NCBI RefSeq assembly: GCF_900114785.1
Contig: NZ_FOUG01000004.1
Span: 248,001-312,000, forward strand
Direction of reading: 5' to 3'
DNA length: 64,000 nucleotides
Origin: Variovorax sp. OV329
GTDB taxonomy: Bacteria > Pseudomonadota > Gammaproteobacteria > Burkholderiales > Burkholderiaceae_C
Made by a program: the position numbers and the translations under genes. The notes under the pieces were generated by a model, which was not told where the DNA came from, made no database searches, and worked only from the letters and a program-made list of their open reading frames with translations. Below are positions 24,873 to 40,765 of this stretch, piece after piece (within the stretch, counting starts at the first letter, position 1; each line of letters opens with the position of its first letter).

Positions 24873-25631
24873 TTACTGCAGTGGCTTCGTCACCAGGTCC
24901 ACCGCGGGGAACGAGGCTTCAAAGCTTGCTTCGATTCGCAGTCTCGACTTGACCGGCCGGCCATCGATCTGCCCGGGTTCGAACTGCGCACCCTTGAACG
25001 CCGCCCGCGCGGCTTCCTGGAGCGCAGGCGAAAGCGCAGGCTCGCCAGACTCGATGTGCTGAACTCGGCCTTCCTCGTCGATGAACAACGAGAGGACCCC
25101 GGTCTGCCGGGTCGCGATCACTTCGCCTGCAGGCGTTTCGAGAACGATGGCCGTGATGGGCTTGGGCCCGATGCTGAGCTGTGGCCTGGGCACGTAGTCA
25201 CCCCGCTCACCCGGTTGCGGCAGCGGAGCTGCTGCCGCCGGATTGGGTTCCGGCTTCGGCGATGCTTCTGATGCTCTGGCGATCGGTGCCGCTTCCGGTG
25301 CCGACGTCCGTCGTGCAGGGCTTGGAGCGGGCAAGCTCGCCCGGGGAAGGCTGGTGGACGGAAGAGTTGTGGAGTCGACGGGCGCCCGCTCCGGGATTTC
25401 CGGGCGCGCCATAGCCGCAGGCACGAGTCTCAATTGCAGGGAACGCGCGCCCGAGGCGTCGGTTGCACCGGCCGGGCGACGCTGTGGGGCACTTTCAAGC
25501 GTGAGCAATGCCGCATGCATCGCGATCGAAAGCGCTGCGCAAGCCGCCAGCACTGGCCACTGGCGCTCCATGCCGGGCAACTCACGCAGGGACGGCCCAC
25601 CGGCCAAGATCCCCTGCGTAGCCATGTGCAT
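24873..25631 (-). CDS. TonB-like protein at the end of the minor-pilin operon
   Basis: Reading from the ATG at 25631, which overlaps the pilY1 stop as TGATG, gives 252 residues. There is one membrane segment (WPVLAACAALSIAMHAALLTL, about 25-45), a long Pro/Ala/Ser-rich stretch (about 75-150) that could span the periplasm, and a C-terminal domain with GVLSLFIDEEGRVQHIESGE and a following helix and strand as in TonB C-termini. TonB proteins transmit inner-membrane energy to outer-membrane receptors. No exbB, exbD or TonB-dependent receptor is nearby, so its partner may be a pilus-related component. The coupling to pilY1 implies co-expression. Confidence 0.75.
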   Translation of the reverse strand: MHMATQGILAGGPSLRELPGMERQWPVLAACAALSIAMHAALLTLESAPQRRPAGATDASGARSLQLRLVPAAMARPEIPERAPVDSTTLPSTSLPRASLPAPSPARRTSAPEAAPIARASEASPKPEPNPAAAAPLPQPGERGDYVPRPQLSIGPKPITAIVLETPAGEVIATRQTGVLSLFIDEEGRVQHIESGEPALSPALQEAARAAFKGAQFEPGQIDGRPVKSRLRIEASFEASFPAVDLVTKPLQ

Positions 25632-28600
25632 CAGTCCGCCAACTCTCGCCAGGAGTTCCGGTGGGGGACGCCAGCGCCGCCGCCACCGCCCGGCGGGCGT
25701 TCGGCGCGAATCGAGCCGTCGCTGTTCTGGCGCAGGATCCGGGTCTCTCCGTTCTCGAGCTTGACCCAGCTCTGACCCACGATCAGCGAATTGGCACTCC
25801 ACAGTTCGCCTGCGGGGTTGTCCAGGGCGTTGCCGTTCGAGGCGTTCAAGTAGTAGCGCCAGGACGACCCGCCCGAACTGCAGGCATCCCCGCTCGGGAT
25901 TGCCGTAGCCAGCGACAGTGTGCCGAACTGCAGGGCCATGTCGGTGTTCACACGCTCACCCGTGTGCGGCAAGTCGACCCACCAACCGTCCTGCGTGGCC
26001 CAGTTCACCTGGTTGCTGGAGATCGACGCGCTGTTTCCGGTCACGGTAAAAGTCTGTCGGACCATGGTGTTGCTTGCGCGCGCGTCACCCAGCCCCGTGT
26101 TGGTCAGGGGGTCCTTCACCGCGTAGATGCTCTGCTGTGTGCTGTCCTCGACGTCAGCGGTGCCCAGGTAGCGGCCCGTAGCGACGATGACGACGGACTT
26201 GCCAGAAATCTCGATGGTCTCGGGACGGACCGTGATCGGCTGCGGCGTCGAAGCGTCGATCTGGAACGTGGCGAGCTTCAAGGCCTGCTGGTGGGGCTCG
26301 ACCAGATTGTCAACGTCGAAGCGCCACAGGTTGCCCTTGAGGTCGCCACCATAAAAGCGCTTGGACGTATTGTTTGAACTGTCTTCGATCCAGGCGTTGA
26401 TCTTCGCCATTCCGATCGGATCGCTGGTCGTTCCGGCGGTCGTCGGAATGTCGAGCAGCCTTTCGCCAGTGTTGGCGTTGATGACGAACAGGTGTCCCTT
26501 GCCGTCGCCGCCACTGACGTTGTTGTTGTAGCCGGAGCCGAAGACCACCACCCATGTGCCGTCAGCGCGCTTGGTGACGATCGGATTGCCGAAGGTCAGG
26601 CCAAGGTTCGAGTCCTTGAATTCCCACAAGGCCTTCGGGTCCTCGGGATTCGTGACATCGAGGGCGTAGTAGGAGCGCCCGCCTTTGTTCATGCCGCCGA
26701 CCAGAATGGTCTTCCAGGTGGTGCCTACCCGGATGTCGGCGATGACCGGGGCGCCGTCGACGAAGTAGCGGTGCCTGGATTCGTAGCCCTTGTCGGCAAG
26801 GCGGTACATCTCCGGCATCGCGTCCGCAGGCACGTAGGCCCACAACTCGGTGCCGCCATCGGCGGTTGCCCCTGAGAAGGCATGCAGCATGCCGTCGTTC
26901 GCAGCGACGTACAGCACGGGCTTGCGCGTGCGGTTGCTGGTCACGAACTGGCTGTAACCGGTGTCGGAATAGGTGAAGGGGGGCGAACTGACATAGATCG
27001 GTGCGCCGTTGATGATGTCGCCTAGTACGCCAGCACGCGCGCGGTACAGCGGTTGCGTGGTGCTGTCCGCAGCACTGGCGGATTCGAAGGTCCGCACGCC
27101 GCGAAGGAAGTTCACCAGGTTGCTTCCGGTGTTGGCGAGGTTGGCCTCGGCAGTCGAGAGATTCGCGCACTGCGTGGGAATCATCGATTTCGAACACAGG
27201 TTCGTGAAGTTGCCCCCGTAGCCGTCGGTGTTCAGGTTGTCCCAGTTGAAGGCGCGCAAGGCCACCGTCGCGGGCTGCTTGTAGTAGATCTTTCGATTTG
27301 CCGGCACGGTCTGCGTGGTCAGCTTGCTCTGCGCCGACCAGATCTCGCGCGTGCCGATCTCGCCGGTGTCTCCATTCAGGGAGAACGCCTGCAGATCTCC
27401 GATCCATTTCTTGGTCGTGTAGCTGGCCTTGTAGACTTGGTTGTTGTCGCCGGCAACCAGTTCCAGCGCGCTGGTGGCTGCTGCCGCTGCCGCACCATCC
27501 TTTTCCTCGATCGTGCTGACCACGCTGTTGATGGCCTCGCTCAGGGCGCTGGCGTTGAGCGCGGAGTAGTACTGGCCGCGACCGTTCACGGCGGCATGCC
27601 AGAGGTCGTCGATGTTCGTGGCGCCTCGGTCGGAGCCAGGGACAGGCCAATTGGCCGTTCCGGCCTTCAGGTTCGCATAGTCCCCCGCTGACTGGGTCAG
27701 GTAGTTGCGGTCGTAGGCCAGGGTTCCGTTCACGCCCAGGCCGATCGTGAACGTGGTCATGTGCTGGTGAGGCGCAGTGTCCAGGCCGCTCGACGGCACG
27801 TTGTTGCTGCAGACGTTCTGTTGGGTGCCGGATGCCGTCGAACTGCAGTTGTTCAGCGCGGTCGTGCGCAGGTCGGTCTTGTAGTAGTACTCCGCCACGT
27901 CAGCCAGCGAATCGGTAGCGCCCCCCGTCGTTTCAACCGATTCGGTCGAAGCACCGCCAAAGCTCGTCCCCGCGACCGAAGACACAGCCTTGCCGTCGAC
28001 GGTTGCCGTGCCTTGCGAGCAGTTGTTGGATGCGCCGCCATCGTTTGTCCAGGCGCCCGAGACGAACACCTGCGGCTGGGTATCCACGGAATAGCGGTTG
28101 GTGTTGTTGCGTCGGCACGAACCCAGAATCCCGACGGTGTAGTAGTTGCGAGAAACCTTGGTCGTTGTCGCCGTGCCGTCGTACATCGGGCGATCCTCGG
28201 TGCCGTCCTGGTTCCCCACGTTGGTGGTGCCATCGAGCTTGTCCGGGCCGTAGCTTGAGGACTCCGATCCGGTGTTCCAGTAGCCGTCCGTGGAGAGCAG
28301 CGTGTAGTTGCGCTGGCACGAGTACTGGACGGGATCTGTCTGGCCAGTGAACTGCTTGGCGTAGTAGCGACCTGCCTTCGAGAGAGCGGCTCGCAGCGGC
28401 GTACTGCCGTTCGCGGTCGCAGCATAGAGCTTGCTGTAGAGGGTCGTCTTCTGCGACGGGGTGAAATCCGCGACGTCCTGAAATCCGTCCCCGTTCGTCG
28501 CGGTTGTCGTGTTGATGGTGGTGAAACCCACGCGGTAGTTGTCGTTCAGCGCGTTGAAGGCGCGGCCGACGGCCGTGCGCATCAGGAATGTGCGCTTGCG

Positions 28601-29536
28601 ATAGAAGGAGTACCAGTTGGCGTATTTCTGCTTGAGGGCTGTGTCTTGGTCCCGGATGTAGACCTTGGTGAAGACGCCGCTGCCGGGCGAACTGCCGATG
28701 TCACTCATGCACTCCTGGTAGAAGGTCGTGCCGGTGTTGACGCCCCCGTCGCTGCCGTAGGTCCAGCCCATCGCGGTTTGCCGCGTGGTCGCCGTGTAGG
28801 TGTAGTAGTAGCGGGAGCCAACCGTCACCGTCTGTGCGATTGTCCAGCTGTTGTACGTGTTGCTACCGCTGGATGCGCTGACCGTCATGGTCAAGGTCCC
28901 TGTGGAGGAGTTCCAGCCGGTCACCGTGCCGGACATGAATCTGCCGGTGTTGCTAGTCGATGTTGCCGTCACCGTGCTGCCGACGACGAAGGTGTCCGTC
29001 GCGTTCGTGCCGGAGACCACGAACGATTTCGTGCCGCTGCTGGTGACGGAGTTGCTGGAACTGCTCGAGCGGGTCGTCGTCACCTGTTCGGTGGCGCTCA
29101 GATCCACCGAGCCGGTGCCTGCGAAGCCGTCTGACTTGGCTGCTGTGAAGCTGGCCGCGACGAAGGACGTGCCGTCCGCATTAAGCGGCGGATCATATGG
29201 CAGCGTCGGGTCGAACGCCGTGCCGTTGCATTGGGATGACCAGTAGCCGTACTTTCCAGTGTACGGCTCGTCCGTCGCGTTCTGCGAGCGGCCCAACTGG
29301 TCCGGCATGTAGCTCCAGTTCATCGAGCCGGAGTCATCCAGCACGAAGAGCATGTTCGGCTTGGCCCTGAACTCGGCGGATCGCGTGATCAGCGGTTCAT
29401 CCAGGATGAACGTGTCGGCGCTGGCCACGGTGGCCCAGCTGGCCAGGCAGGCCGCCAGGCTGCTCGCGAGCGCGACGCCGGTCGAGCCGTGCCGAAGCGC
29501 CTGGCCCGATTTCTTCTTCTTGAGTTTTTCTTGCAT
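25631..29536 (-). CDS. pilY1: PilY1-family type IV pilus tip adhesin, copy A
   Basis: The ATG at 29536 has an AGGAG site 9 bases upstream and gives 1301 residues; an earlier in-frame ATG at 29569 lacks one. There is a signal peptide of about 40 residues, then a von Willebrand A-like MIDAS segment MLFVLDDSGSMNW (Asp67-Ser71). The C-terminal PilY1 beta-propeller begins around PVLYVAANDGMLHAF. Residues about 150-240 are a Ser/Thr-rich insertion not seen in copy B that reads like a phage tail-fibre module. The loop matching the calcium site of Pseudomonas PilY1 is DSSNNTSKR and has lost most of its acidic ligands. PilY1 promotes pilus assembly and surface attachment. Confidence 0.93.
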   Translation of the reverse strand: MQEKLKKKKSGQALRHGSTGVALASSLAACLASWATVASADTFILDEPLITRSAEFRAKPNMLFVLDDSGSMNWSYMPDQLGRSQNATDEPYTGKYGYWSSQCNGTAFDPTLPYDPPLNADGTSFVAASFTAAKSDGFAGTGSVDLSATEQVTTTRSSSSSNSVTSSGTKSFVVSGTNATDTFVVGSTVTATSTSNTGRFMSGTVTGWNSSTGTLTMTVSASSGSNTYNSWTIAQTVTVGSRYYYTYTATTRQTAMGWTYGSDGGVNTGTTFYQECMSDIGSSPGSGVFTKVYIRDQDTALKQKYANWYSFYRKRTFLMRTAVGRAFNALNDNYRVGFTTINTTTATNGDGFQDVADFTPSQKTTLYSKLYAATANGSTPLRAALSKAGRYYAKQFTGQTDPVQYSCQRNYTLLSTDGYWNTGSESSSYGPDKLDGTTNVGNQDGTEDRPMYDGTATTTKVSRNYYTVGILGSCRRNNTNRYSVDTQPQVFVSGAWTNDGGASNNCSQGTATVDGKAVSSVAGTSFGGASTESVETTGGATDSLADVAEYYYKTDLRTTALNNCSSTASGTQQNVCSNNVPSSGLDTAPHQHMTTFTIGLGVNGTLAYDRNYLTQSAGDYANLKAGTANWPVPGSDRGATNIDDLWHAAVNGRGQYYSALNASALSEAINSVVSTIEEKDGAAAAAATSALELVAGDNNQVYKASYTTKKWIGDLQAFSLNGDTGEIGTREIWSAQSKLTTQTVPANRKIYYKQPATVALRAFNWDNLNTDGYGGNFTNLCSKSMIPTQCANLSTAEANLANTGSNLVNFLRGVRTFESASAADSTTQPLYRARAGVLGDIINGAPIYVSSPPFTYSDTGYSQFVTSNRTRKPVLYVAANDGMLHAFSGATADGGTELWAYVPADAMPEMYRLADKGYESRHRYFVDGAPVIADIRVGTTWKTILVGGMNKGGRSYYALDVTNPEDPKALWEFKDSNLGLTFGNPIVTKRADGTWVVVFGSGYNNNVSGGDGKGHLFVINANTGERLLDIPTTAGTTSDPIGMAKINAWIEDSSNNTSKRFYGGDLKGNLWRFDVDNLVEPHQQALKLATFQIDASTPQPITVRPETIEISGKSVVIVATGRYLGTADVEDSTQQSIYAVKDPLTNTGLGDARASNTMVRQTFTVTGNSASISSNQVNWATQDGWWVDLPHTGERVNTDMALQFGTLSLATAIPSGDACSSGGSSWRYYLNASNGNALDNPAGELWSANSLIVGQSWVKLENGETRILRQNSDGSIRAERPPGGGGGAGVPHRNSWRELAD

Positions 29537-29568
29537 GGCTGAGGACTCCTGGTGCTGCACGGCGCGCA

Positions 29569-30246
29569 CTATTGGAAATGCATGATGGTTTCGATGAAGG
29601 CGGTCGTGTTGCGGGCGCCGAGCACGCGAACGACGATGCGGTAGTAGGGGCCGGTCGCCGCTTCGAAGCGCTTCCCGCCGTAGCCGAGGGAGCCTCGTCC
29701 AGACGCGCCGCTTCCGCTTGTCAAGGGTTTGGCGCAGCTGTTGTTGATCTCGTCATTCGAGTCGCCCGCCACGTCGCACAGACGGAAAATGACGTAGCGG
29801 GTCCGGTTCCCGTTGATCGTTCCGCCGTCGGCGGTCAGCAAAGCGCAGCTGGCGAACGTGCCTCCGGGCGCGAAGTTGCATTCCGTGTCTCCGTCCCAGT
29901 CGATCAGCTTGCGTGAGTTGTTGGTGACCTGCTGCTGCCCCGTGACGTCCACAGGCGTCACGGTGGAGTTCGCGTTGCGCTCCTTGGTGCTGGCGTAGTA
30001 GCCGCTGTTGGCAAGGTCGGCGTCCAGTGTCGCGGCGTTGGTCTTGAGCCATTCGATCGCCCGGCGCGTCGCCTGGTCGCCTGCGACTGCCGCGTCTTGC
30101 TTGAAGCCAATGTTCCCCATCACGAGCGCACCCGTGTCGATGTTGCGTACCAGTCCTAGCGTGGCCAGCGACAGCGCAACCAATGCAAGGAGCGCAAACA
30201 GGAGGGACACGCCGCGCTGATCGCGGCTTGGGCTGATGTGGTTCAT
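29569..30246 (-). CDS. pilX: PilX-type minor pilin, copy A
   Basis: The ATG at 30246 overlaps the pilW stop (ATGA) and gives 225 residues. The N-terminus has the class III-like pilin signal RGVSLLFALLALVALSL, then GNIGFKQDAAVAGDQATRRA, a region conserved in PilX proteins. The soluble domain ends YYRIVVRVLGARNTTAFIET, as in the PilX-like proteins encoded upstream of pilY1 genes. It is expected to be a minor subunit priming the pilus together with PilV, PilW and FimT. The same family member in copy B is 215 residues. Confidence 0.9.
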   Translation of the reverse strand: MNHISPSRDQRGVSLLFALLALVALSLATLGLVRNIDTGALVMGNIGFKQDAAVAGDQATRRAIEWLKTNAATLDADLANSGYYASTKERNANSTVTPVDVTGQQQVTNNSRKLIDWDGDTECNFAPGGTFASCALLTADGGTINGNRTRYVIFRLCDVAGDSNDEINNSCAKPLTSGSGASGRGSLGYGGKRFEAATGPYYRIVVRVLGARNTTAFIETIMHFQ

Positions 30247-31418
30247 GGGGCGGCTGTCGCAGAGTTCCAAAGCACGTTTCGCAACGGGACGATGGTGTCG
30301 TAGACCTTGTAGCGGTAATGCTTCCATTCGGGGACGTGGTCGATCTTGATGCGCAGGCATTTGCTTGTTCCGCAGTTTTCGGTTCCTGCAATGGCGGAGC
30401 CTGCCCCGACATCCCACAAGGGCGCGGACTGGGTGACTTCGTCCTTTTCGTATTGCCCGCTGCGTGCCACTACCGCGAGGCGAATCGACAGGACCTGCTG
30501 CCACTCCAAGGCGTTAGCAGGCGTGGTGGTGTCGTAGGTGTCGACTTGCCCATCTAGGGTCGTGTCCTTCCCGTACATCGCCTGCAGGTTCACGATCTGG
30601 GGGTAGAGCGCGGTGGACGCACTGGCGGCGGCGCCTGCGGTGCGGGACATGGCAATGAGGTTGAATGCGCCGTCGACCGAGTACGTGTTGTGGGCCATGG
30701 TGCCGAGGTTCAGCAGGTAGCTGTTCTTCTCGTACCTGTCAGGGAAGAGCTCACTGTGATTCCAGGCGCTCGTCCCGGAGGTATGCGGCACGCGCTTCGG
30801 CCCCAGCGTCGTGTCCGTTCCGGGCGCTGCAGCCCCGTCGTCCGTCACGCTGAAGACAGTGCACCAGTTGGTCGAACTCCACGCATTGTCCGCAGGAACA
30901 ACAATCATCAGATCGCCTGCGGCGGCGCCGAATGACGACTTGACGATGAAGAAGTCATTCGTCTTGAGATGCGGGCTCATGACCAACATCGGCGCAGAGA
31001 ACGAGGACTTGCGGCCCTGCATGATGGTGAGCGTGTCCGGCATGCCGTTCGCGCCGTCCGTGATCACTACGGGCGCGAGCACGGGATTGAACGCGACCCC
31101 AGGGGTTTCCTCCGGTACGCCCGGCTCCTTGTACTCGCCCTTGATCGGGCAACCCATGGCACCGGGGTCGTTGATGGCGCCGTAGCCGGACATCTGGATC
31201 TCACGCTGGATCGTGTAGAGCGATAGCGAGCCATTCACCTGCGCATCGGTGCCCATGGTGAGAGTCCGCTTCTTGCTATCCGTGAGGACGACCACCTGAG
31301 TGATGACCAGGGTGGTCAGCAGGCCCAGCGCCAGGGCGATCATGAGCTCGACGAGGGTGAAGCCTCTTGCGGGGAACGCACGCATATCGGGAAGGCGAAA
31401 GGGAAGTGTCGTTTGCAT
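30243..31418 (-). CDS. pilW: PilW-type minor pilin, copy A
   Basis: This 391-residue protein starts at 31418, one base after the pilV stop; an internal Met at residue 12 is possible. The prepilin site is RGFTLVELMIALALGLLTTL, with Glu5 present. The soluble part contains PilW-type NGSLSLYTIQREIQMSGYG and a C-terminal HYRYKVYDTIVPLRNVLWN, which is also nearly identical at the end of copy B (RYRSFETVVPLRNVLW). It is predicted to belong to the pilus-tip initiation complex. Confidence 0.9.
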   Translation of the reverse strand: MQTTLPFRLPDMRAFPARGFTLVELMIALALGLLTTLVITQVVVLTDSKKRTLTMGTDAQVNGSLSLYTIQREIQMSGYGAINDPGAMGCPIKGEYKEPGVPEETPGVAFNPVLAPVVITDGANGMPDTLTIMQGRKSSFSAPMLVMSPHLKTNDFFIVKSSFGAAAGDLMIVVPADNAWSSTNWCTVFSVTDDGAAAPGTDTTLGPKRVPHTSGTSAWNHSELFPDRYEKNSYLLNLGTMAHNTYSVDGAFNLIAMSRTAGAAASASTALYPQIVNLQAMYGKDTTLDGQVDTYDTTTPANALEWQQVLSIRLAVVARSGQYEKDEVTQSAPLWDVGAGSAIAGTENCGTSKCLRIKIDHVPEWKHYRYKVYDTIVPLRNVLWNSATAAP

Positions 31419-31419
31419 G

Positions 31420-31872
31420 TCAGCCCGCCGCCTTGGAGAGGATGGTGGTGAGGGTCTGGTACTTGTGGCTCCCCCCCTTGGGCGTGGTCCACGTGAGCGT
31501 TATGGAAACGTCGCCCGAGGCTTCATCGACCGTGATTGCGGCGCCGCCGCTCGGCAGGATCTTGGCGACCTTCGCGCGCCACTCGGTGCAGCTGGCGGCG
31601 CTGCAGTTGGCGTCGCCGGCGTAGCCCGTCAGGTTGTTCATGTCGGACCACATGCGGCCGACAGCTTCAGTGGCGAGGTAAGCCGCATCCGCGCGGATCT
31701 TGGAATCCGTCTGGGTGGCGGTCATCACGCCGTGCAGTCCGATCAGTCCAAGGAGGCCAAGCATGAAGATCAGCAGCGCGACCAAGACTTCGAGCAGCGC
31801 CATGCCACGGATGTGCGCCCGTGCGTGACTGGCGCGCGAAGTGACTGGACGGTGTGTGGCAATTGCGCTCAT
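31420..31872 (-). CDS. pilV: PilV-type minor pilin, copy A
   Basis: The ATG at 31872 overlaps the fimT stop (ATGA) and gives 150 residues. It has a long basic leader of about 24 residues ending in RG, then MALLEVLVALLIFMLGLLGL, the PilV signature with Met at mature position 1 and Glu5 in place. GLHGVMTATQTDSKIRADAAYLA follows, as in PilV proteins. The downstream pilW begins one base after its stop. The role is as a minor pilin in pilus initiation. Confidence 0.9.
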   Translation of the reverse strand: MSAIATHRPVTSRASHARAHIRGMALLEVLVALLIFMLGLLGLIGLHGVMTATQTDSKIRADAAYLATEAVGRMWSDMNNLTGYAGDANCSAASCTEWRAKVAKILPSGGAAITVDEASGDVSITLTWTTPKGGSHKYQTLTTILSKAAG

Positions 31873-32492
31873 GGCGTCGGGTTGCTGGTGCATTTGCGTG
31901 GGTCGTTGCCGTCGGTGATCTTGGGATCGCACATGCGGACGGCGCCTGCTGAGGTGATCTCGACCCAAAGGTTGCGATAGGTCGCATTGGGGTCGGTGCC
32001 GGTGACCTGGATCTGCGCGATGGGCGTGGTGTTCGTCACTCGTCCGAAGCCGTTGAAGGTGACGGTATTAGCGGCGGTCGCGCCGTCGGCCTGCAGCCCG
32101 CTGACCGCGACCCGGCCGCCGGCATCGTTCAACGTGCGCGTAGCAGTAATCTGGAGTGCACCCACATTGGATGGGGCGGTGGCGCATCTCAGCGCTGGAG
32201 AGCTGGCGGCGACGACCCACGACCCGCTGGTGCTGGACAGTGCGCAGCTGTTGTCCATCGCGCCTGGGTTGGTCAGTGAAACCAGGTAGAACGACATCGC
32301 CTGGTTCCGCCGTACGGCCTCGGCTCTGGCCATCTGCAAGCCTTCCTGCAGCGCCTGTGCGGTGTTGCGGATGCGCGTGTTGTCCATCCACGTGCCGATG
32401 CTGGGCCCGGCGGCCATCAGAATCATCCCGAGGACCGCGAGGGTGACGACAATCTCGATGATTGAGAAGCCGCGTTGCCGTTGCATGCGCAT
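31869..32492 (-). CDS. fimT: FimT/GspH-type minor pilin, copy A
   Basis: Starting at the ATG at 32492 (MRMQRQRG) gives 207 residues; the next ATG, at 32486, is also possible. The prepilin motif is GFSIIEIVVTLAVLGMILMA, followed by QEGLQMARAEAVRRNQAMSF, the conserved helix of GspH/FimT proteins. The soluble domain ends with RMCDPKITDGNDPRKC. It lies 16 bases after pilE copy A and overlaps pilV by ATGA. Confidence 0.9.
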   Translation of the reverse strand: MRMQRQRGFSIIEIVVTLAVLGMILMAAGPSIGTWMDNTRIRNTAQALQEGLQMARAEAVRRNQAMSFYLVSLTNPGAMDNSCALSSTSGSWVVAASSPALRCATAPSNVGALQITATRTLNDAGGRVAVSGLQADGATAANTVTFNGFGRVTNTTPIAQIQVTGTDPNATYRNLWVEITSAGAVRMCDPKITDGNDPRKCTSNPTP

Positions 32493-32508
32493 GATGGGCG
32501 GCACCTCG

Positions 32509-32994
32509 TCAGCAGGTGGCGTCTCGGGTGAGCCAGCAGTCTTGCGCAACAGCGTTCCCCCTGAACCGCGTCGTCCTCCGCGAGCCTAGTTGGTTGACGG
32601 TGTAGGTATGGCCAACCGCTTGGCCACTGTTGCCTATGGCGGTGAGGGTGTAAGTCTGGGCGTTGTTGGCAGCGACGCATTCGTAGCGAAAATGAGCCGT
32701 CGCCGTGAAGTCATGCCAGCTATTGGCGGTTGCGTCGTCCGCGCAGGTCGCGCCGGCGCCGTAATTGCGGTTGTCCTGGTAGTACTGCTCCATCTTCATC
32801 CGGAAATCCGCGAGCGCGCTGAACGCCTCCGGCAACTGGCCACGACGAACGTAGTCGGAGTAGGCGGGCACGCCGATGGAAGCCAGGATCGCGATGATCG
32901 CGACCACGATCATGACTTCGATCAGGGTGAAACCGCGCGAATGCTGGCCGCGTCGGAGGCTCGCTTTGGCAGGGGCATGGATGGAGCAGAGCAT
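32509..32994 (-). CDS. pilE: PilE-type minor pilin, copy A
   Basis: The first ATG, at 32994, gives 161 residues. It has a basic leader and then GFTLIEVMIVVAIIAILASI, followed by PAYSDYVRRGQLPEAFSALA and MEQYYQDNRNYG, the wording typical of PilE minor pilins of beta- and gammaproteobacteria. Paired cysteines occur in the C-terminal half. It is the first gene of the distal minor-pilin operon; its promoter should lie in 32995-33178, where I see no strong consensus. Confidence 0.9.
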   Translation of the reverse strand: MLCSIHAPAKASLRRGQHSRGFTLIEVMIVVAIIAILASIGVPAYSDYVRRGQLPEAFSALADFRMKMEQYYQDNRNYGAGATCADDATANSWHDFTATAHFRYECVAANNAQTYTLTAIGNSGQAVGHTYTVNQLGSRRTTRFRGNAVAQDCWLTRDATC

Positions 32995-33000
32995 AGGCAA

Positions 33001-33178: not shown

Positions 33179-36100
33179 TCAGTCGCGGGCGACTTCGCGC
33201 CACATCACGCGCGTCGGTGCAGTGGAAGCGGGCACCTGTACTCCGAAGGTGCGTGTCCCACCCTCCGAGGTTCTCACCAGAATCTTGGTGCCCCCGCCCG
33301 GCAGCCCGATCGGCTGCACCCGGCTCGCCAGCACATCCCCCACATACCGGCTCGCCAGCATGGGAATGGCGCCACCGTTGCTGTAGTTCAGGAAGTACAG
33401 GTTGCTGCTGCCCCCCGGCTTGCACGGATCAGCCGAAGGCGTGTTGGTCGTAAAACTCAGCACCCCACCAAACAGCACCGGGCTGGTGGCGCTCCGCTCA
33501 CCCGACGGCGAAGGCGCGAAATCCAGCACCCACCCCCGCTTGGTGGCGAAGTTCACCGGGTTGGTCGTGATGTTGATCTCGCCGTTGGGCGCCGGCGTGG
33601 CGCTCTGGGCCACCAGTTGGCCGCGCAGCGGCGCAGCGATGGGCGCGCCGGACATGTCGTCCATCAGGCCGTAGAAGGACTGCTGCTGCGTCGCGCTGGC
33701 GCTGGCACCGGGTGCGCCCGGCACGTCGCTGGGGCCCAGGTAGCGGCCGGTGCCCACGTACACGACGCGCTTGCCGTTCACCACGCCCAGCTCGGGCGCG
33801 GCGGTGACGGGCTGGGGCACGCCGCTCTTGTCGACCAGGGTGGCCAGCAGGGTGACGTTCCAGCTTCCGGTGGTCGCGCCCGACAGGTCGAATCTCCACA
33901 CGTTGCCCAGCAGGTCGCCGCCGTAGACGAAGTCCACCGTGTCGTCGCTGCCGGGGTTGACCAGGAAGGCGCTCATGCGCGCCAGGCCGCTGGGAGTGGT
34001 GGGCGTGCCGGCGCTGGTCTGCAGGTCGCGCACGACCTGGCCGTTGGCGGTGTCCAGCACGAACAGGTGGCCTTGCCCGTCGCCGCCCGTGCCGTCGCCA
34101 TTGTTGTAGCCCGAACTCACCAGCGTGACCCAGCCGGCCGCGCGCGTCTTCACGTTCAGCGGCACGCCGTAGCTGAAGCCGATGTTGTTGCGCGTGGTGG
34201 CGCTGGTGCCCGCGTTCGGAAACTCCCACAGCAGCTTGGCGGCCACCTCGGCGTCGTTGCCGGCGGCGGGGTCGGTCACGTTCAGCGCGTAATAGCCGCG
34301 CCCGCCCTTGGCCAAGCCGCCCACCAGGAGCGTCGCCCATCGAGGCGAGGGCGGCGCGGGCTGGTTGAGCGCGGTGTTGGACAAATCCACATCGGTGGCC
34401 GTCGGCGTGCCATCCACATAGAAGCGGTGCTGGAACAGCCCCTGCTGGGTCAGGCCCACCAGTGCGCTGGTGCCCGGCCGCGCACTCGACAGCGGCGCAT
34501 CGACCAGCGCGCCCGGCACGTAGGCCCACAGCTCCTCGCCGCTCGCGGCATCGAAGGCGTGCAGCATGCCGTCGTTGGCGCCCTGGTAGACCACCTTGGC
34601 ACGGCTGGCCGCCGGGCCGGTCTTGAAGTCGCCATAGCCCGGGTCGGTGTAGTTGGCGCGCGGCGCGGTGACGTAGACCGGCTCGGCATCCACCACGTCG
34701 CCCAGCACATGGGCGCGGCCGCGGTAGGGCCGCGAGGTGCTGCCGGCGACGGCCTCGCCGCTGCGGTCGCCGCGAAGGTAGGCGATCACCGCGGCGTTGT
34801 CCGATGGGCCGGGCGGCACGCCGGGCGAGTTCAGGCGCGCGGCCTTGCCTGCGCCCAGGCCCGTCGCGGTGAAGGGCACCCCGGCTGTGCCGTTGAAGCT
34901 GGCGACGTAGCGATTGGCCGACGGCTTCGCATCCAGCCGCGCCTGCGCCGACCACAGCGGCGTGGCCGACAGCACGCCGGTCTGCAGGTCGACCGGAAAT
35001 GCCTCCAGGTCGCCGAACCAGGCACCCGAGTTGAAGCTGGCGGCAAATGCCAGGTTGTTGCCGGGCAGCAGGCTGGGGTTGCTCACCGACACCGCGCTCG
35101 CCGAGCCGGTGCGGTTGACGATGTCGTCCAGGATGCTGCCCAGCGAGGTGCGCAGGCGCTCCGGGTCGGAGGAATTGAAGTACTGCCCGTGGCCGTTCAG
35201 TGCCGCATGCCAGAGGTCGTCGATGGCGGTGGCCGTGCCGGGCTGCGGCACGGGCCAGGTGCTACCGGCGGCCGGGGGCGCGCTCAGGGTGCCGGTGGCG
35301 CCAAGGCCGATGCTGTACGTGACCATGTGCTGCCAGGTGGCCGGATCGCCCGGCGTGGCCTGCACCTTGCCCGCCGAGTTGCCGGTCATGTCGCGGATCC
35401 AGTAGCGCATGGCGACGTCGGCCAGCGAGTCAGAGGTGCCTGTGCCATCGAAGAAGGGCGCAGGAAAGTCCTGCCCGGCCACCAGTGGCACGCCGGCGAT
35501 CGGGTCGTTGCGGGCAGCGCCGGTCGCCGGGTCGGCGTACACGTTGGCGGGCAGGTCGGGCACCGTACGGTCGGTGTCGCCCACCGACACACTGCCGCGC
35601 GAGGTCCAGTAGCCGTCGGTGGACAGGATGGTGTAGTTGGGCGTGCAGCTCAGGGGAACCGTGTCGCTGCGCGACGCGGCACCGGCCGCGCCGGGCATGC
35701 TGCCGCTGGTGTAGTAGCGGCCCGCGCGGTCCAGCGCCGGCACCAGGGGCGTGCCACCCGTCGGGCGGATGCCGTAGAGCTGGTCGTACCAGCGCTGCTT
35801 CTGGGCGCTGTCGAAATCGGCCAGCGGCACGAAGTTGGCGCCGCTGTCGTTGTCCTGGCCCGCGTTGTTGTTGATGGTCGAGAAGCCCACGCGCGACTTC
35901 GCGTCCAGCGCGGAGAAAGCCAGGCCCAGCGCGGTCTTGGCGCTCTGCATGCGGGTGCGGTAGTAGCTGAACCAGTTGGCGAAGTTCTGGCTCTCCTGCG
36001 CAAAGCTGCAGCTCGTGGCCGACGCGTTGCCGCAGTCGGTGCGCGTCGCGGCCTTGGGGTAGGTGCTGGTGCTGCTGCGGATCTCGACGCGGTCGTAGTT

Positions 36101-36769
36101 GCTGTCCGAGTCCTGCGCCGCGCTGCCGTCCTCGGTGCCGACGCCGCGCCAGCGGTAGAAGAAGGAATAGCGCTGGTACTCGGTGTTGCGCACCACGTCG
36201 GGCGCGTTGGCGCAACTGCCGTTTTGCGTGAAGTCGCCGGCGTTGAAACGCGGAAGGGCTGGTGGCGTCGAGCTGCTCCAGCACGCTTCGGTCAGGTCGA
36301 GCAGCCGCGCATCCAGGTAGGCATCGATGCGTGCCGCGGCGGGCAGGCTGTCGCCCATGGCGGACAGGAAGCCCGGCGCGCCGCCGTCGAACTCCACCGG
36401 CGCCAGGTAGGTAATGGCGGGGTTGTAGTACTGCCGGTTGTAGCTGGGCGAATAGTAGGCGCGCCGGTTCTTCGCGCCGGTGGTGCTCCGCATGCCGGGC
36501 GACTGCCCCGCGCGCACCGCGTCGTCGTAGGGCGAGGTGTATTCGCCGTGCGCGTCGCTCCCGGTGATGGAGCCCCAGCCCATGCTGCCGGAGTTGTCCA
36601 GCGTGAACAGCACGTTCGGCTTGACGCCGGTCTGCACCAGCAGCGGCACGTCGGCCAAGTCGGTCGATGCCGCGTGCGCCCGGAGCGGCTGCAGCAGCAT
36701 CGCGCCCGATGCGATCAGGACGATGGCTCGCTGGAGGGCCTTGCGCCTGGCGGTCGATTCCTGCTGCAT
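33179..36769 (-). CDS. pilY1: PilY1-family type IV pilus tip adhesin, copy B
   Basis: The ATG at 36769 has an AGGAG site 7 bases upstream and gives 1196 residues. A signal peptide ends near LQPLRAHA, then comes the MIDAS-like NVLFTLDNSGSMGWGS and, after a tip-domain region of about 550 residues, the PilY1 propeller with VVYQGANDGMLHAF and ELWAYVPGALV. The calcium-site equivalent reads NPGSDDTVDFVYGGD, which retains more acidic residues than copy A. It lacks the Ser/Thr-rich insertion of copy A. It is the last gene of the proximal minor-pilin operon. Confidence 0.93.
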   Translation of the reverse strand: MQQESTARRKALQRAIVLIASGAMLLQPLRAHAASTDLADVPLLVQTGVKPNVLFTLDNSGSMGWGSITGSDAHGEYTSPYDDAVRAGQSPGMRSTTGAKNRRAYYSPSYNRQYYNPAITYLAPVEFDGGAPGFLSAMGDSLPAAARIDAYLDARLLDLTEACWSSSTPPALPRFNAGDFTQNGSCANAPDVVRNTEYQRYSFFYRWRGVGTEDGSAAQDSDSNYDRVEIRSSTSTYPKAATRTDCGNASATSCSFAQESQNFANWFSYYRTRMQSAKTALGLAFSALDAKSRVGFSTINNNAGQDNDSGANFVPLADFDSAQKQRWYDQLYGIRPTGGTPLVPALDRAGRYYTSGSMPGAAGAASRSDTVPLSCTPNYTILSTDGYWTSRGSVSVGDTDRTVPDLPANVYADPATGAARNDPIAGVPLVAGQDFPAPFFDGTGTSDSLADVAMRYWIRDMTGNSAGKVQATPGDPATWQHMVTYSIGLGATGTLSAPPAAGSTWPVPQPGTATAIDDLWHAALNGHGQYFNSSDPERLRTSLGSILDDIVNRTGSASAVSVSNPSLLPGNNLAFAASFNSGAWFGDLEAFPVDLQTGVLSATPLWSAQARLDAKPSANRYVASFNGTAGVPFTATGLGAGKAARLNSPGVPPGPSDNAAVIAYLRGDRSGEAVAGSTSRPYRGRAHVLGDVVDAEPVYVTAPRANYTDPGYGDFKTGPAASRAKVVYQGANDGMLHAFDAASGEELWAYVPGALVDAPLSSARPGTSALVGLTQQGLFQHRFYVDGTPTATDVDLSNTALNQPAPPSPRWATLLVGGLAKGGRGYYALNVTDPAAGNDAEVAAKLLWEFPNAGTSATTRNNIGFSYGVPLNVKTRAAGWVTLVSSGYNNGDGTGGDGQGHLFVLDTANGQVVRDLQTSAGTPTTPSGLARMSAFLVNPGSDDTVDFVYGGDLLGNVWRFDLSGATTGSWNVTLLATLVDKSGVPQPVTAAPELGVVNGKRVVYVGTGRYLGPSDVPGAPGASASATQQQSFYGLMDDMSGAPIAAPLRGQLVAQSATPAPNGEINITTNPVNFATKRGWVLDFAPSPSGERSATSPVLFGGVLSFTTNTPSADPCKPGGSSNLYFLNYSNGGAIPMLASRYVGDVLASRVQPIGLPGGGTKILVRTSEGGTRTFGVQVPASTAPTRVMWREVARD

Positions 36770-36791
36770 GAGGGCGCTCCTGGTCCGTCCA

Positions 36792-37439
36792 TCAGCCAAA
36801 TGGCAACTCCACCACCGTCTGCACCGTGCTCGCGGTGTTGCGCGGCCCCTGCACACGCACCGTCACCCGGTAGTGGATGGTGGGCCGCAGCGGCGAGACG
36901 CCGCCGGCGCCGCCGAACACATGCGTGGTCTGCGCATGGCTGCTGTTGTCGGCGCCCGCCCCGCCGGCGCTGGCGAAGGGCGCACCCGACACGCACTTGG
37001 CCGCCAGCGTCGCAGCCGCCTCGCCCGGCGTGGGCACGACTGTGCACAAGCGCTCGATGACGTACTGCACGCGGTAGCTCGCCGCGTCGGTGCAGGAGAC
37101 CGGGGTCGCTGTGCCGGTGGCGCCCCAGCACGGCACGCTGGACCAGTCGACCGTGCTGGGCACGCCGTTCGCATCCACCGCCTGCATCAGGCGGTAATAC
37201 TTGCCCGGCACGTCCGCGTCGGCAGATGCCAGGGCAGGCAGTTCGCTGAAGGCGCGCTCGGCGCCGGTGTCGGCGGCGCCGGTGGTCGCCTGCTTGAAGG
37301 CCAGGTTGCCGGCGATCACGCCGGCGGTGTCCGAGGTGCGCAGCAGGGCCAGCGCCGCCAGCGACAGGATCAGCAGCGCGATCAGCGCGATGTAGACGAT
37401 GAAGCCGCGCTGGGCGGCATGGGAGGGTGCGCGTCTCAT
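36792..37439 (-). CDS. pilX: PilX-type minor pilin, copy B
   Basis: The ATG at 37439 overlaps the pilW stop (ATGA) and gives 215 residues. The N-terminus reads RGFIVYIALIALLILSLAAL, then DTAGVIAGNLAFKQATTGAA, paralleling GNIGFKQDAAVAG in copy A. The C-terminus HYRVTVRVQGPRNTASTVQT also matches copy A. The divergence of the two copies is large enough that recent duplication is unlikely. Confidence 0.9.
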   Translation of the reverse strand: MRRAPSHAAQRGFIVYIALIALLILSLAALALLRTSDTAGVIAGNLAFKQATTGAADTGAERAFSELPALASADADVPGKYYRLMQAVDANGVPSTVDWSSVPCWGATGTATPVSCTDAASYRVQYVIERLCTVVPTPGEAAATLAAKCVSGAPFASAGGAGADNSSHAQTTHVFGGAGGVSPLRPTIHYRVTVRVQGPRNTASTVQTVVELPFG

Positions 37440-38593
37440 GACAGGTTCGCCCACAGCACGTTGCGCAGCGGCACCACCGTCTCGAAGCTGCGATATCGGT
37501 AGCAGCGCCAGTCGGGGTCGCTGCTCAGGTCGATGGCCGGGCCGTCCGGCCAGGTCGCGGGTGCGGTGCTGGTGATGTTGCAGGTTCCGGTGGCCGGGTC
37601 GGGCCTTTCCCGCAGCGGGCTGCGCACCACCACCGCGAGCCGGATCGCCTTGATGCGCTTGGCATCGGCAGGCGTGGGCAGCGCCCAGTTGCCCGCCGGG
37701 CCCAGCGTGGCGCTCACCCACTGTGTCACCACCTGGCTGCCCGCGTCGCTGATGCCGTAGCGCGCCTTCAGCCCCACCACGTGGCTTGCCACCTGCACCA
37801 GCGCGCCGTTGCTGAAGCGGTCCTGCGCCATCAGCGACCCGTTGGCCACCCGGTAGCTGCGTTGCATGAGCGCGCCCGCGTCGTGGATGCGCGGGTTGGT
37901 GTCGAAGACGGCCGGCCAGGCCAGCGCGCCCATGGCACCGTCCGGGGGGTTGTAGTTGGCCTGCGATGCCGTGCCCGCGACCGGGTCGTGCGAGAGGATC
38001 ACTGTATCCGGGCTCGCGGGATTGGCCACGCTGGCGGTGATGCGCACCAGCGCGCAGTCGTTGCGGTCGTCGGTCAGCCAGGCGAAGCCCCCGACCGTGG
38101 ACTGTCCCACCGCGCTCACCGGATAGAGCTTGGCCGGGTCGCCGTTGGGCACGGCGGTCACGGTCTGCAGGAGCGGATTGCGCACGTTGGCGCGCACCGA
38201 ACTGCCCCACAGCACCACGATGCCGTCCGATGCGCCGGGGGCGCTGCCTCCGTCCACGATGCGAACCGGCGCGCCGGTGAAATCGGGCACCGCGCCGCTG
38301 CCCGATCCATCGTCGTAGTAGCTGAAGTAGCGCGCGCAAGGCATCACGTCGGCGGTGGGCATGCCCCAGCCGGCGGCGCGCACGTCGCGCTCGATGGTGG
38401 ACAGGCTGAACATGCCGTTCTGCTGGATGTCGGCGCCGGCGGTGGTGGTGCGCTTCAGCGCCTCGTTGGTCGACACCACCTGGTAGATGATGATCGCCAC
38501 CACCAGGCCCACGACCATGCCCACCATGATCTCGACCAGGCTGAAGCCCCGGTGGCAGGCGGCGCGGTAGTGGTGGATGCGTTGCGCGTGCAT
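37436..38593 (-). CDS. pilW: PilW-type minor pilin, copy B
   Basis: This 385-residue protein starts at 38593, 13 bases after pilV. The prepilin site is RGFSLVEIMVGMVVGLVVAI. The body has GMFSLSTIERDVRAAGWGM and ends RSFETVVPLRNVLWANLS, matching PilW copy A in position and wording. It is predicted to be a tip-complex minor pilin. Confidence 0.9.
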   Translation of the reverse strand: MHAQRIHHYRAACHRGFSLVEIMVGMVVGLVVAIIIYQVVSTNEALKRTTTAGADIQQNGMFSLSTIERDVRAAGWGMPTADVMPCARYFSYYDDGSGSGAVPDFTGAPVRIVDGGSAPGASDGIVVLWGSSVRANVRNPLLQTVTAVPNGDPAKLYPVSAVGQSTVGGFAWLTDDRNDCALVRITASVANPASPDTVILSHDPVAGTASQANYNPPDGAMGALAWPAVFDTNPRIHDAGALMQRSYRVANGSLMAQDRFSNGALVQVASHVVGLKARYGISDAGSQVVTQWVSATLGPAGNWALPTPADAKRIKAIRLAVVVRSPLRERPDPATGTCNITSTAPATWPDGPAIDLSSDPDWRCYRYRSFETVVPLRNVLWANLS

Positions 38594-38606
38594 GGCATGT
38601 GCCCGT

Positions 38607-39077
38607 TCAGCCCTGGATCTGCGTCGTCAGGGTGAAGTTGTGCGGCGCGGCGTCCTGCGGGGCCTGCCAGCACAGGGTGAGGGAGACGGTGTTGTCCGCG
38701 CTCACGAGGATCTTCTGCCGCAACTGCGCGGCGCCGGGCAGGGCGCCCGGGTTGTCGGCGCTGCCCAGGCTGTCCAGCCATTCGTTCACCGCCGGGTTGG
38801 CGCTGCTGTTGCTGCCTGACGGGCAAGTGCTCGTGACGTCGGCATTGAGCGCATAGGTGGGCACGTTGTAGCGGTCCACCCACATGCGGCCCACCAGTTG
38901 GTTGGCGAACAGGCTGGCCTTGGCGCGGTAGTCGGCGTCGCGCACCGCCCGGATGGCGGTGGCCTGCAGCCCCACGATGCCCAGGATGGCGAAGGAGAAG
39001 ATGGCGATGGCCACCAGCGCCTCGATCAGCATCACGCCGCGCTGGGTCCGCGAAGGGGCATGGCGGCGGCGATTCAT
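38607..39077 (-). CDS. pilV: PilV-type minor pilin, copy B
   Basis: The ATG at 39077 overlaps the fimT stop (ATGA) and gives 156 residues. The leader ends TQRG and is followed by VMLIEALVAIAIFSFAILGI, then GLQATAIRAVRDADYRAKAS, parallel to copy A but with a normal short leader of about 14 residues. The role is as a minor pilin of the proximal operon. Confidence 0.9.
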   Translation of the reverse strand: MNRRRHAPSRTQRGVMLIEALVAIAIFSFAILGIVGLQATAIRAVRDADYRAKASLFANQLVGRMWVDRYNVPTYALNADVTSTCPSGSNSSANPAVNEWLDSLGSADNPGALPGAAQLRQKILVSADNTVSLTLCWQAPQDAAPHNFTLTTQIQG

Positions 39078-39655
39078 GCGCACCCCTGCGGGTTGATGGC
39101 AATGGACAGCGCCGGGTCGCACAGCCGGATGTCGCCGCCGGGGTCGAGCACGATGCGCAGCGGCCGTGTCTGGCCCGGGCCGGTGACGTCGATCTGCCGC
39201 ACCGCTGTTCCGATGCTCAGCCGCCCGATGCCGGTGAAGGCGATGTTCGCCGGGAGGCCGGCACCGGGCGCCGCGCTCGCCGCGCCGGCCGTGCTGCCCA
39301 CGCCGGCACGGGCCAGCGAACTGCTGGAGTCCTCCTGGCGCGCCTGCACCACCTGGTCGAACACCGTCGGCGTCTCCGGCAGGGCCACCAGCACCGACCA
39401 GTCGGTGCCGCCCGGCACGGCGGCGCCATGCAGCGTGTTGTGCAGCCGGAACTCCACCACCTCGTTGCGACGGATCGATTCGGCGCGCGCCAGCTGCAGG
39501 CCGCTCATCACCGATTCGGCCGACGCGCGGATCTGGCCGTTCTGGATGAAGCTGGAGAAGCTCGGATAGGCCAGCGTGGCCAGGATGCCGACCAGCACCA
39601 CGGTCACCATCAGTTCCACCAGCGTGAAGCCGGCGGCGCGCCGGCGCGGGCTCAG
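39074..39655 (-). CDS. fimT: FimT/GspH-type minor pilin, copy B, probable CTG start
   Basis: The mature part is unmistakable: AAGFTLVELMVTVVLVGILA, then VMSGLQLARAESIRRNEVVE, ending DIRLCDPALSIAINPQGCA. No ATG, GTG or TTG lies in this frame for at least 30 codons upstream of the prepilin site. The only codon in the expected place is CTG at 39655-39653, overlapping the pilE stop as CTGA, exactly where the other junctions have ATGA. That gives 193 residues with a nine-residue leader LSPRRRAAG. Initiation at CTG, helped by coupling to pilE, is the simplest reading; a point mutation of the start is the alternative. Confidence 0.82.
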   Translation of the reverse strand: MSPRRRAAGFTLVELMVTVVLVGILATLAYPSFSSFIQNGQIRASAESVMSGLQLARAESIRRNEVVEFRLHNTLHGAAVPGGTDWSVLVALPETPTVFDQVVQARQEDSSSSLARAGVGSTAGAASAAPGAGLPANIAFTGIGRLSIGTAVRQIDVTGPGQTRPLRIVLDPGGDIRLCDPALSIAINPQGCA

Positions 39656-40113
39656 GGCTTGCGCAGCACCCAGGTGCCCTGCACGCCGCTGAAGTTCCAG
39701 GCGCAGCCGGTGCAGGTGCTGCTGCGGTTGCCCAGCTGGTCGATGCTGTAGGCCAGCCCTGTCACCAGCCGCTGCGCACCCGTGGCCGTGGCGGTGTAGG
39801 CCTGGCCGCCGCCCGAGATGCTGCAGCTGTAGCTGAAATACTCCGTCTCCGGGGTCGTCGGCACCGGCACCGCGCAGGCCGCGCCGTTCGCATAGCTGCG
39901 GTTGTCGTGGTAGTACTGCTCCATCTTCGCCCGGTAGGCCAGCAACGTTCCCGGCGCCTCCTGCGCATGCCCGCGGCGCAGGTAGTCGGTGTAGCTGGGG
40001 TAGGCGATCGTCGACAGGAGCGCCACGATGGCGACCACGATCATCACTTCGACCAGCGTGAAGCCGCGGCTCGCTGCCGCAGCCCGACCGAAGCACCTGG
40101 AAACAACTGCCAT
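39652..40113 (-). CDS. pilE: PilE-type minor pilin, copy B
   Basis: The ATG at 40113, with AAGGGA upstream, gives 153 residues. The leader ends ASRG and is followed by FTLVEVMIVVAIVALLSTIA, then PSYTDYLRRGHAQEAPGTLL and MEQYYHDNRSYANG, the same layout as copy A. The C-terminal cysteine-rich end is STCTGCAWNFSG. It is the first gene of the proximal operon; its stop overlaps the putative CTG start of fimT. Confidence 0.9.
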   Translation of the reverse strand: MAVVSRCFGRAAAASRGFTLVEVMIVVAIVALLSTIAYPSYTDYLRRGHAQEAPGTLLAYRAKMEQYYHDNRSYANGAACAVPVPTTPETEYFSYSCSISGGGQAYTATATGAQRLVTGLAYSIDQLGNRSSTCTGCAWNFSGVQGTWVLRKP

Positions 40114-40170
40114 GCGTCGACATCCCTTGGGGGCGTTGCGAGCGCCATGCACTGACGATTCGCAAAGAAT

Positions 40171-40190
40171 GTCACTGCAGCACCCGTGAC
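40171..40190. promoter_or_regulatory. Inverted repeat upstream of pilE copy B
   Basis: GTCAC (40171-40175) and GTGAC (40186-40190) are inverted with a 10-base spacer, 58-77 bases upstream of pilE copy B. It could be an operator. The spacing does not fit a CRP/Vfr site (TGTGA-N6-TCACA), and no sigma-70 or sigma-54 promoter with good match was found beside it. Confidence 0.25.
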
Positions 40191-40270
40191 TCAACCGCCA
40201 CTCGGCGAGGGGAGGGGCCCGTTCGTCAGGTGTCGTTGACGTGCGCCCGCTCGAGGGGCCCGGCATCGCT

Positions 40271-40765
40271 TCAGTCGGCGACGAAACTGCCCGACTTGCC
40301 GCCATGCTTTTCCAGCACGCGCACGCCGGTGATGGTCATGCCGCGGTCCACCGCCTTGACCATGTCGTACACCGTGAGCAGGGCGACCTGCACGGCGGTG
40401 AGGGCCTCCATTTCTACCCCGGTGGGCCCCACGGTTTCCACCGTGGCCATGCACAGCACCTGCGGCAGCGAGCCGGCCGCCTCGTCGCCGGGCTGGGTCG
40501 CGAATTCGATCGCCACGCGGGTCAGCGCCAGGGGGTGGCACAGGGGAATCAGGTCGCTGGTCTTCTTGGCCGCCTGGATGCCCGCGATGCGGGCGACGCC
40601 CAGAACATCGCCCTTCTTGGCGCTGCCCGATTCGATCAGGGCAAGGGTATCGGGCAACATCTCGATGCGGCCGGTGGCAATGGCTATGCGGTGGGTGGCG
40701 GGCTTGGCCGCGACGTCGACCATGTGGGCCTGGCCGTGTTCGTCAAAGTGGGTGAGGGAACTCAT
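40271..40765 (-). CDS. moaC: Cyclic pyranopterin monophosphate synthase
   Basis: The ATG at 40765 gives 164 residues, close to the 161 of E. coli MoaC. The sequence carries [15 protein letters not shown] at the N-terminus, [18 protein letters not shown]-type active-site residues ([13 protein letters not shown]) and [19 protein letters not shown], all diagnostic of MoaC. It converts the MoaA product to cyclic pyranopterin monophosphate in molybdenum cofactor synthesis. It is divergent from the M48 peptidase gene, with 76 bases between starts. No other moa gene is nearby. Confidence 0.97.

Follow-up and report, generated by a model that had tools for sequence, protein, structure and literature searches.

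The source of specificity at the tip of PilY1 is an open question. Diversity of its N-terminal part has been noted in print, with two domain types named, and a 2026 comparison of 15 published PilY1s gives vWFA and DUF4114 as the sole conserved N-terminal domains or sequences identified (PMC13190605). The question arises at a pilY1 gene of Variovorax sp. OV329, here called copy A, for which the initial annotation proposed a tip domain holding a module like that of phage tail fibres. What is this module, how did it come to lie in a pilus adhesin and what might it do there? The window, the whole stretch of DNA that was analysed, is 64,000 nucleotides long. The preferred explanation, probable when taken as a whole, is a PilY1 tip adhesin with an inserted, most likely phage-derived contact arm. 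A phage-type module behind the MIDAS would be a defined, removable and testable part that links adhesion by pili to the stock of fibre parts found in phages, and it suggests that bacteria and phages share parts for surface contact. PilY1 adhesins themselves are already known; what is new here is a PilY1 adhesin bearing a phage-fibre module. The literature searched (titles and the beginnings of abstracts, with subscription papers and preprints mostly outside the search) held no report of a phage module in PilY1.

Copy A and its inserted domain

Copy A resembles the PilY1/PilC VWA tip adhesins in its C-terminal beta-propeller, its VWA fold with a MIDAS (DxSxS, present in a subset of the family) and its minor-pilin cluster, and differs from them in that its MIDAS loop holds an additional beta domain of the phage-fibre type. 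The features of the locus are as follows.

25631..29569, minus strand: pilY1 copy A, 1312 aa (ORF list and translation)
26102..27025, minus strand: PilY1 beta-propeller domain of copy A, residues 849-1156 (PF05567)
28817..29092, minus strand: whole inserted beta domain with six predicted strands, residues about 160-251 (two fold models)
28835..29056, minus strand: phage fibre module, profile envelope residues 172-245, aligned 174-244 (phage-only HMM and profile-profile comparison)
29324..29338, minus strand: MIDAS motif DDSGS, residues 78-82, after the first VWA strand (sequence)
29569..30504, minus strand: ORF in the pilX place, between pilW and pilY1, named by position only
30243..31418, minus strand: pilW of the copy A cluster (PF16074, E 2.1e-16)
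31420..33000, minus strand: three more minor-pilin ORFs of the copy A cluster, at 31420-31968, 31869-32549 and 32509-33000 (N_methyl, GspH and ComP_DUS matches)
33179..36856, minus strand: pilY1 copy B, without the module, for comparison (PF05567, E 1.4e-40)

The propeller matches the Pfam family T4P_PilY1 (PF05567) with E 6.8e-43 and 147.6 bits against a cut-off of 28.1, and copy A matches the solved PilY1 structure PDB 3hx6 with E 7e-53. Copy A is encoded with minor pilins, as pilW and other pilin-like ORFs lie upstream of it; the N_methyl match of the ORF at 31420-31968 falls below its cut-off, and the ORF in the pilX place gave no Pfam family above its cut-off. The start listed for copy A is GTG, and an ATG 11 codons downstream opens what looks by eye like a signal peptide. 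Copy B is 34% identical to copy A across the aligned part and has its own MIDAS loop of 200 residues, unlike the 233-residue loop of copy A. Since it holds a different loop at the place of the module, copy B is not usable as an empty-site comparison. Copy B also has pilin-like genes of its own, and the two minor-pilin/pilY1 clusters adjoin on the same strand (25631-33000 and 33179-40305), each with pilW-like and ComP-like pilin ORFs.

Both peptides quoted in the initial annotation, GRFMSGTVTGWNSSTGTLTM (residues 209-228, window positions 28886-28945, minus strand) and SASSGSNTYNSWTI (residues 231-244, 28838-28879, minus strand), are present in copy A and lie within residues 209-244. The span that it gave corresponds to residues 161-248 and agrees with the domain at about 160-251 in the fold models. 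The module was also said to come shortly after the MIDAS; it does follow the MIDAS, but the closeness has to be taken loosely since the domain begins about 80 residues past DDSGS.

An AlphaFold2 model of residues 50-846, built on a PilY1-only alignment of 33 rows (mean pLDDT 85.6), has a VWA domain in which the aligned parts span model residue 19 (protein residue 68) to about 650. The ten best solved matches of this model include the pilus adhesins Mfa5 (Z 17.9, rmsd 3.6, 197 residues aligned), PilB of S. sanguinis (Z 16.7, rmsd 3.5, 221 aligned) and SpaC (Z 16.6, rmsd 3.5, 201 aligned), and VWA chains of unrelated proteins reach similar Z. The first long helix of the model follows ANW, at residue 317, and with the MIDAS at residues 78-82 this sets the module in the loop that leads from the MIDAS strand to the first VWA helix. 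From this topology, the module is predicted to stand around the MIDAS.

A second AlphaFold2 model, of the module itself, used an alignment of 49 rows with phage rows included and has six strands (mean pLDDT 77.2, pTM 0.65). The same six strands appear, within one residue, in the model from the PilY1-only alignment, where they run over copy A residues 160-170, 179-186, 199-204, 211-220, 225-234 and 242-251.

Relationship to phage fibre modules

Searches of PHROGs, named phages and the PDB with the copy A segment as a single sequence gave weak matches or none, so that the case for homology required profiles. The best match of the copy A segment to PHROGs had an E of only 0.39, a PDB sequence search gave E 0.4 and worse, and tblastn against named phages gave no match at E 10, perhaps because of the BLAST low-complexity filter. 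Against PHROGs, the phage form of the module reached E 0.015 at best, and a Burkholderiales prophage module gave no tblastn match to named phages at E 1e-3. Neither form of the module matched a Pfam family (the Pfam list of copy A at E<=1 holds the propeller only), which makes the module a candidate new domain family.

The entry into the viral sequences came from the 70-residue copy A segment alone, which found two viral contigs among 153 candidate stretches, both with the same 584-aa collagen-like fibre protein. This protein carries Pfam Collagen and Phage_fiber_2, and as a whole it matches tail-fibre PHROGs. A search with its module showed 445 of 506 candidate viral stretches to be relatives, of which 79 loci were kept, and among named phages it returned six records, one of them a gene of Synechococcus phage Ssp-JY42 annotated as fiber protein.

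The phage-only profile was made from 79 domains of viral loci. Controls matter here because the viral seed was itself found using the window's segment. Among 2324 sequences the profile matches copy A residues 174-244 with 29.4 bits (iE 9.2e-8), 19.2 bits having already been taken off as bias correction. Shuffling the copy A stretch 2000 times gave 7.9 bits at best (best domain listed), and the best among the 317 other ORFs of the window reached 4.7 bits for a domain and 5.8 for a whole sequence. The reversed stretch is not listed at E<=100; nor is copy B, from which the module had been said to be absent. Four PilY1s of the same genus match the profile with 30.9, 18.9, 13.8 and 11.2 bits. When a PilY1-only profile (20 rows) was compared with a phage-only profile (26 rows), the match had a probability of 98.4% and an E of 1e-14. 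The resemblance to phage fibre proteins, which the initial annotation had drawn from a motif, is thus borne out by a significant match in sequence profiles and in a viral structure library.

That library was BFVD, which holds viral proteins only. The module model gave 22 matches in it at E<=1e-3, comprising 13 named collagen triple helix repeat, two tail fiber protein, one glycine-rich, five uncharacterized and one without a name; 20 of the 22 come from uncultured Caudovirales phages. The best two had TM 0.70 and 0.71 with an rmsd of 1.4 over about 80 columns (BFVD E 1.9e-6 for the match with TM 0.70). As the module model used phage rows, the BFVD match is not wholly independent of the sequence match. 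By these models, the copy A module has the same predicted fold as the phage modules. A fold search of the PDB with the module model found no solved structure at E<=1e-3, and the best match of a second PDB comparison, a JBD30 baseplate chain (Z 7.9, followed by many ATPase and helicase chains), lies in a range rated common. No known solved fold is claimed for the module, nor is any rejected.

Copy A thus shares with collagen-like phage tail fibres a module of about 70 residues by sequence profile, its predicted fold and a closing GSGTYSSW-like motif. It differs in that its module sits in a bacterial VWA loop, and PilY1 modules are longer and more varied. Pfam found no collagen-like Gly-x-y repeats in copy A. 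Judged by its sequence, copy A is a relative of the fibre module and not itself a tail fibre. An extra two-cysteine loop, perhaps disulfide-bound, can be seen by eye in the modules of L095, L098, L100, L101, L105, L108, L109, L110, L113, L173, L174 and L208.

Insertion and patchy distribution among PilY1 proteins

The state of the module place was compared in copy A and 64 named PilY1 loci, 65 proteins in all. The stretch that separates the anchors QCNG and NWYSYY is 111-128 aa long in 22 of them and 188-257 aa long in 29; one (L103) was mis-cut and 13 yielded no segment. The phage-only profile gave at least 10 bits in 19 of the 65, 5.1 bits or less in the 22 with the short segment and less than 10 bits in the remaining 24. 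A PilY1 profile iterated on the same 65 proteins matched 26 at E<1e-3, with L104 at 0.033, a count that is by its nature circular and is of use only for setting the limits of the module. Inserts of like length in L096 and L099 are unmatched by the profile. Other material also enters the loop, as in L142 (Acidovorax sp. MR-S7), where 257 aa lie between the anchors and the insert is unmatched by the module profiles.

The clearest empty site is found in a pair of Variovorax proteins, that of V. paradoxus ISL-3 (L094) with the module and that of Variovorax BIN51 (L116) without it. They are identical at 865 of 1233 aligned residues (70%), with a single clean gap spanning the module, and are sisters in a quick tree with support 100. 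Homology of the module to a phage fibre domain and its insertion into PilY1 are, taken together, nearly certain. A search for insertion scars turned up short, imperfect repeats only, and nothing usable. The GC content of the copy A module (0.614, against 0.629 for the gene) lies inside the gene's own range and gives no sign of recent arrival; foreign composition was dropped as such a sign.

The distribution of the module is patchy. Among 101 genomes of the genus (the window's own counted), the PilY1-module profile finds it in nine, all in open frames of 1230-1567 aa, while the phage-only profile finds it in three, one of these in a 434-aa ORF unlike PilY1. In the sample of the order, 257 of 399 genomes have PilY1 at E<=1e-3, and at least five of the 257 carry the module in it (G000, G188, G482, G336 and G301). 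The phage-only and PilY1 profiles each gave 17 matches in 15 genomes of this sample. For the phage-only profile, 13 of these lie in frames of 212-900 aa, three in PilY1 and one in a 2347-aa frame (L169) that is marginal (E 5.7e-4) and has a repetitive look; for the PilY1-only profile, 14 lie in other frames of 212-900 aa and three in PilY1s. In the class, three genomes out of 369, one of them the source of the window, have a match at E<=1e-5. The segment is therefore not a general part of PilY1, which together with the significant phage match leaves the initial annotation standing on both of the points that could have overturned it.

A second PilY1 subfamily, marked by a DLDGDG motif and 1648-1669 aa long (L173:2821-7764, L174:2362-7368, L208 and L210), has the module as well, at a different place. 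As read from the alignment, it lies there between LTPF-like and TGxxxCNATx stretches, further on than in copy A. L208 is the weakest match of the subfamily (12.1 bits in part; 2.4e-5 with the PilY1 profile). The members L212 and L216 are without the module at that place, and the stretch in L209 is unmatched by the profiles. In the main group the place also varies with respect to the host NL-x-YYxY stretch; the module comes after NL in copy A and its kin (nine rows) and before it in another set (12 rows of the tree), as read by eye, with six further rows too diverged to place.

A patchy distribution could also arise without repeated acquisition if the module were ancestral to the VWA-PilY1s of the Burkholderiales and had been lost many times, a reading judged less likely than not. 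On the quick tree, which holds 61 PilY1s (L108, L133, L151 and L152 of the 65 were dropped) with rows cut behind the insert and 12 rows unlabelled, presence and absence need seven changes, at least six of them forced by starred branches. The division into gains and losses depends on their weights, with eight gains at one extreme, a single gain with seven losses at the other, and two gains and five losses at equal weights; in this count nine outlying PilY1s with no match were taken as lacking the module and three unlabelled rows were dropped. An ancestral module, with one gain and seven losses, comes out once a gain is weighted as heavily as two losses or more. It is also compatible with the tree of the modules, which has too few columns to prove or disprove repeated capture from phages and in which a single clade is not rejected, either for the PilY1 modules as a whole (p-AU 0.745) or for those of the VWA type (0.83). 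As that tree leaves one PilY1 clade possible, repeated insertion rests on position, and it is position that speaks against the ancestral reading, both in the two neighbouring places relative to the NL-YYxY stretch and in the different place in the second subfamily. Passage of the module from one PilY1 to another is possible. A recent capture by L094, whose module grouped with a prophage module (support 87, unstarred), was considered and dropped, because a tree holding the VWA-type modules together fits better. In L133 (Ramlibacter terrae) the pilY1 match runs over four open frames; the gene may be broken or the sequence faulty.

Proposed role and probable origin of the module

In published pilus models of Myxococcus xanthus, PilY1 is at the tip with its N-terminal domain outermost (PMC13190605). 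V. paradoxus EPS has three homologs of pilY1, and swarming and biofilm phenotypes are described for one of them (PMC3283707). A report on PilB of S. sanguinis describes two arms that protrude beside the MIDAS, which the authors liken to RrgA (PMC8179133). Copy A resembles such VWA pilus adhesins in its VWA fold, and its module may be an extra element near the MIDAS as the arms of PilB and RrgA are, a likeness drawn from the VWA fold match to PilB and from topology.

The proposed scheme is that copy A, a member of the PilY1 family whose N-terminal VWA domain bears a MIDAS, would act as an adhesin at the tip of a type IV pilus. A small beta domain has entered its VWA domain, in the loop that leads from the MIDAS strand to the first helix, and is homologous to one found often in the collagen-like tail fibres of phages and in Burkholderiales proteins of prophage type. 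Phages or prophages would be its source. Its arrival in copy A probably lies long ago, because the module has diverged and its composition matches that of the gene. At the pilus tip, the module may form an arm beside the MIDAS through which contact with a surface ligand is gained or changed. The VWA domain and the propeller would go on in their normal roles. Phage fibres bind surface structures, and the ligand would most likely be a glycan of the cell surface or the matrix, of the kind bound by phage fibres.

A function in contact is given about an even chance. From the MIDAS loop, a compact beta domain could readily reach whatever the pilus meets. Module length ranges more widely in PilY1 (73-108 aa, n 25) than in viruses (62-83 aa, n 104), and some PilY1 modules have cysteine-bounded loops, features that fit a contact surface weakly and argue, as weakly, against the module being a rigid spacer or folding aid. 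Such a spacer, homologous to the phage module but lengthening the MIDAS loop and altering tip reach or mechanics without touching a ligand, is the less likely role. It would fit the arrangement in the phages, where 54 of the 61 viral parent ORFs with a strong domain have runs of at least six Gly-x-y triplets and the module lies between collagen-like runs in most of the examples inspected, so that it may be a spacer there too. It would also fit the unrelated loops at the same place in copy B and L142, which indicate that the loop tolerates varied filling.

The preferred reading of the module as a contact arm admits a bolder extension, in which tail-fibre modules of phages are exchangeable contact cassettes that pilus tips have captured again and again, and pili thus bind what phages bind, i.e., surface glycans of their own kind or of neighbours. 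This extension is judged improbable. If it were true, the module could serve contact between kin, gripping of the matrix or even rivalry with phages for the same receptor.

Transfer from phages to PilY1 is the likely direction, and is held with slightly more confidence than the explanation as a whole. The reverse, in which an old bacterial surface domain was taken up by phages, is unlikely. It draws on the unsettled rooting of the module tree, in which the PilY1 modules may be one clade at the p-AU values given above. It has to contend with the abundance of the module in the candidate viral stretches (445 of 506, in samplings of viruses and PilY1s that are not comparable), with the preponderance of frames of 212-900 aa over PilY1s in the order matches of the phage profile (13 to three of 17), and with the nine unmatched PilY1s outside the main group, which were counted as devoid of the module. 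The PilY1 and phage modules could also share an older source. Convergence of a low-complexity Ser/Thr/Gly beta stretch on a fibre-like sequence, which the strong composition bias and the empty or weak direct searches of PHROGs and named phages would fit, is rejected as very improbable, given shuffles below 8 bits, the low scores of the 22 empty-site PilY1s, a match over the full length of the module, the profile-profile E and the recurrence of the same six strands from a PilY1-only alignment.

The preferred source, a phage or prophage, can be set beside the genomic context of ten match places in the order sample. By reading, two of these are PilY1 and eight are not. A PHROGs scan of four of the eight placed tape-measure genes near the module gene in three (L175, L177 and L178), with no tape-measure gene among the ORFs scanned at the fourth, L172. 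The four module proteins themselves gave no PHROG match at E<=1e-4. L172 belongs to a Variovorax genome, in which the module lies in a 434-aa ORF unlike PilY1 (L172:5937-7238).
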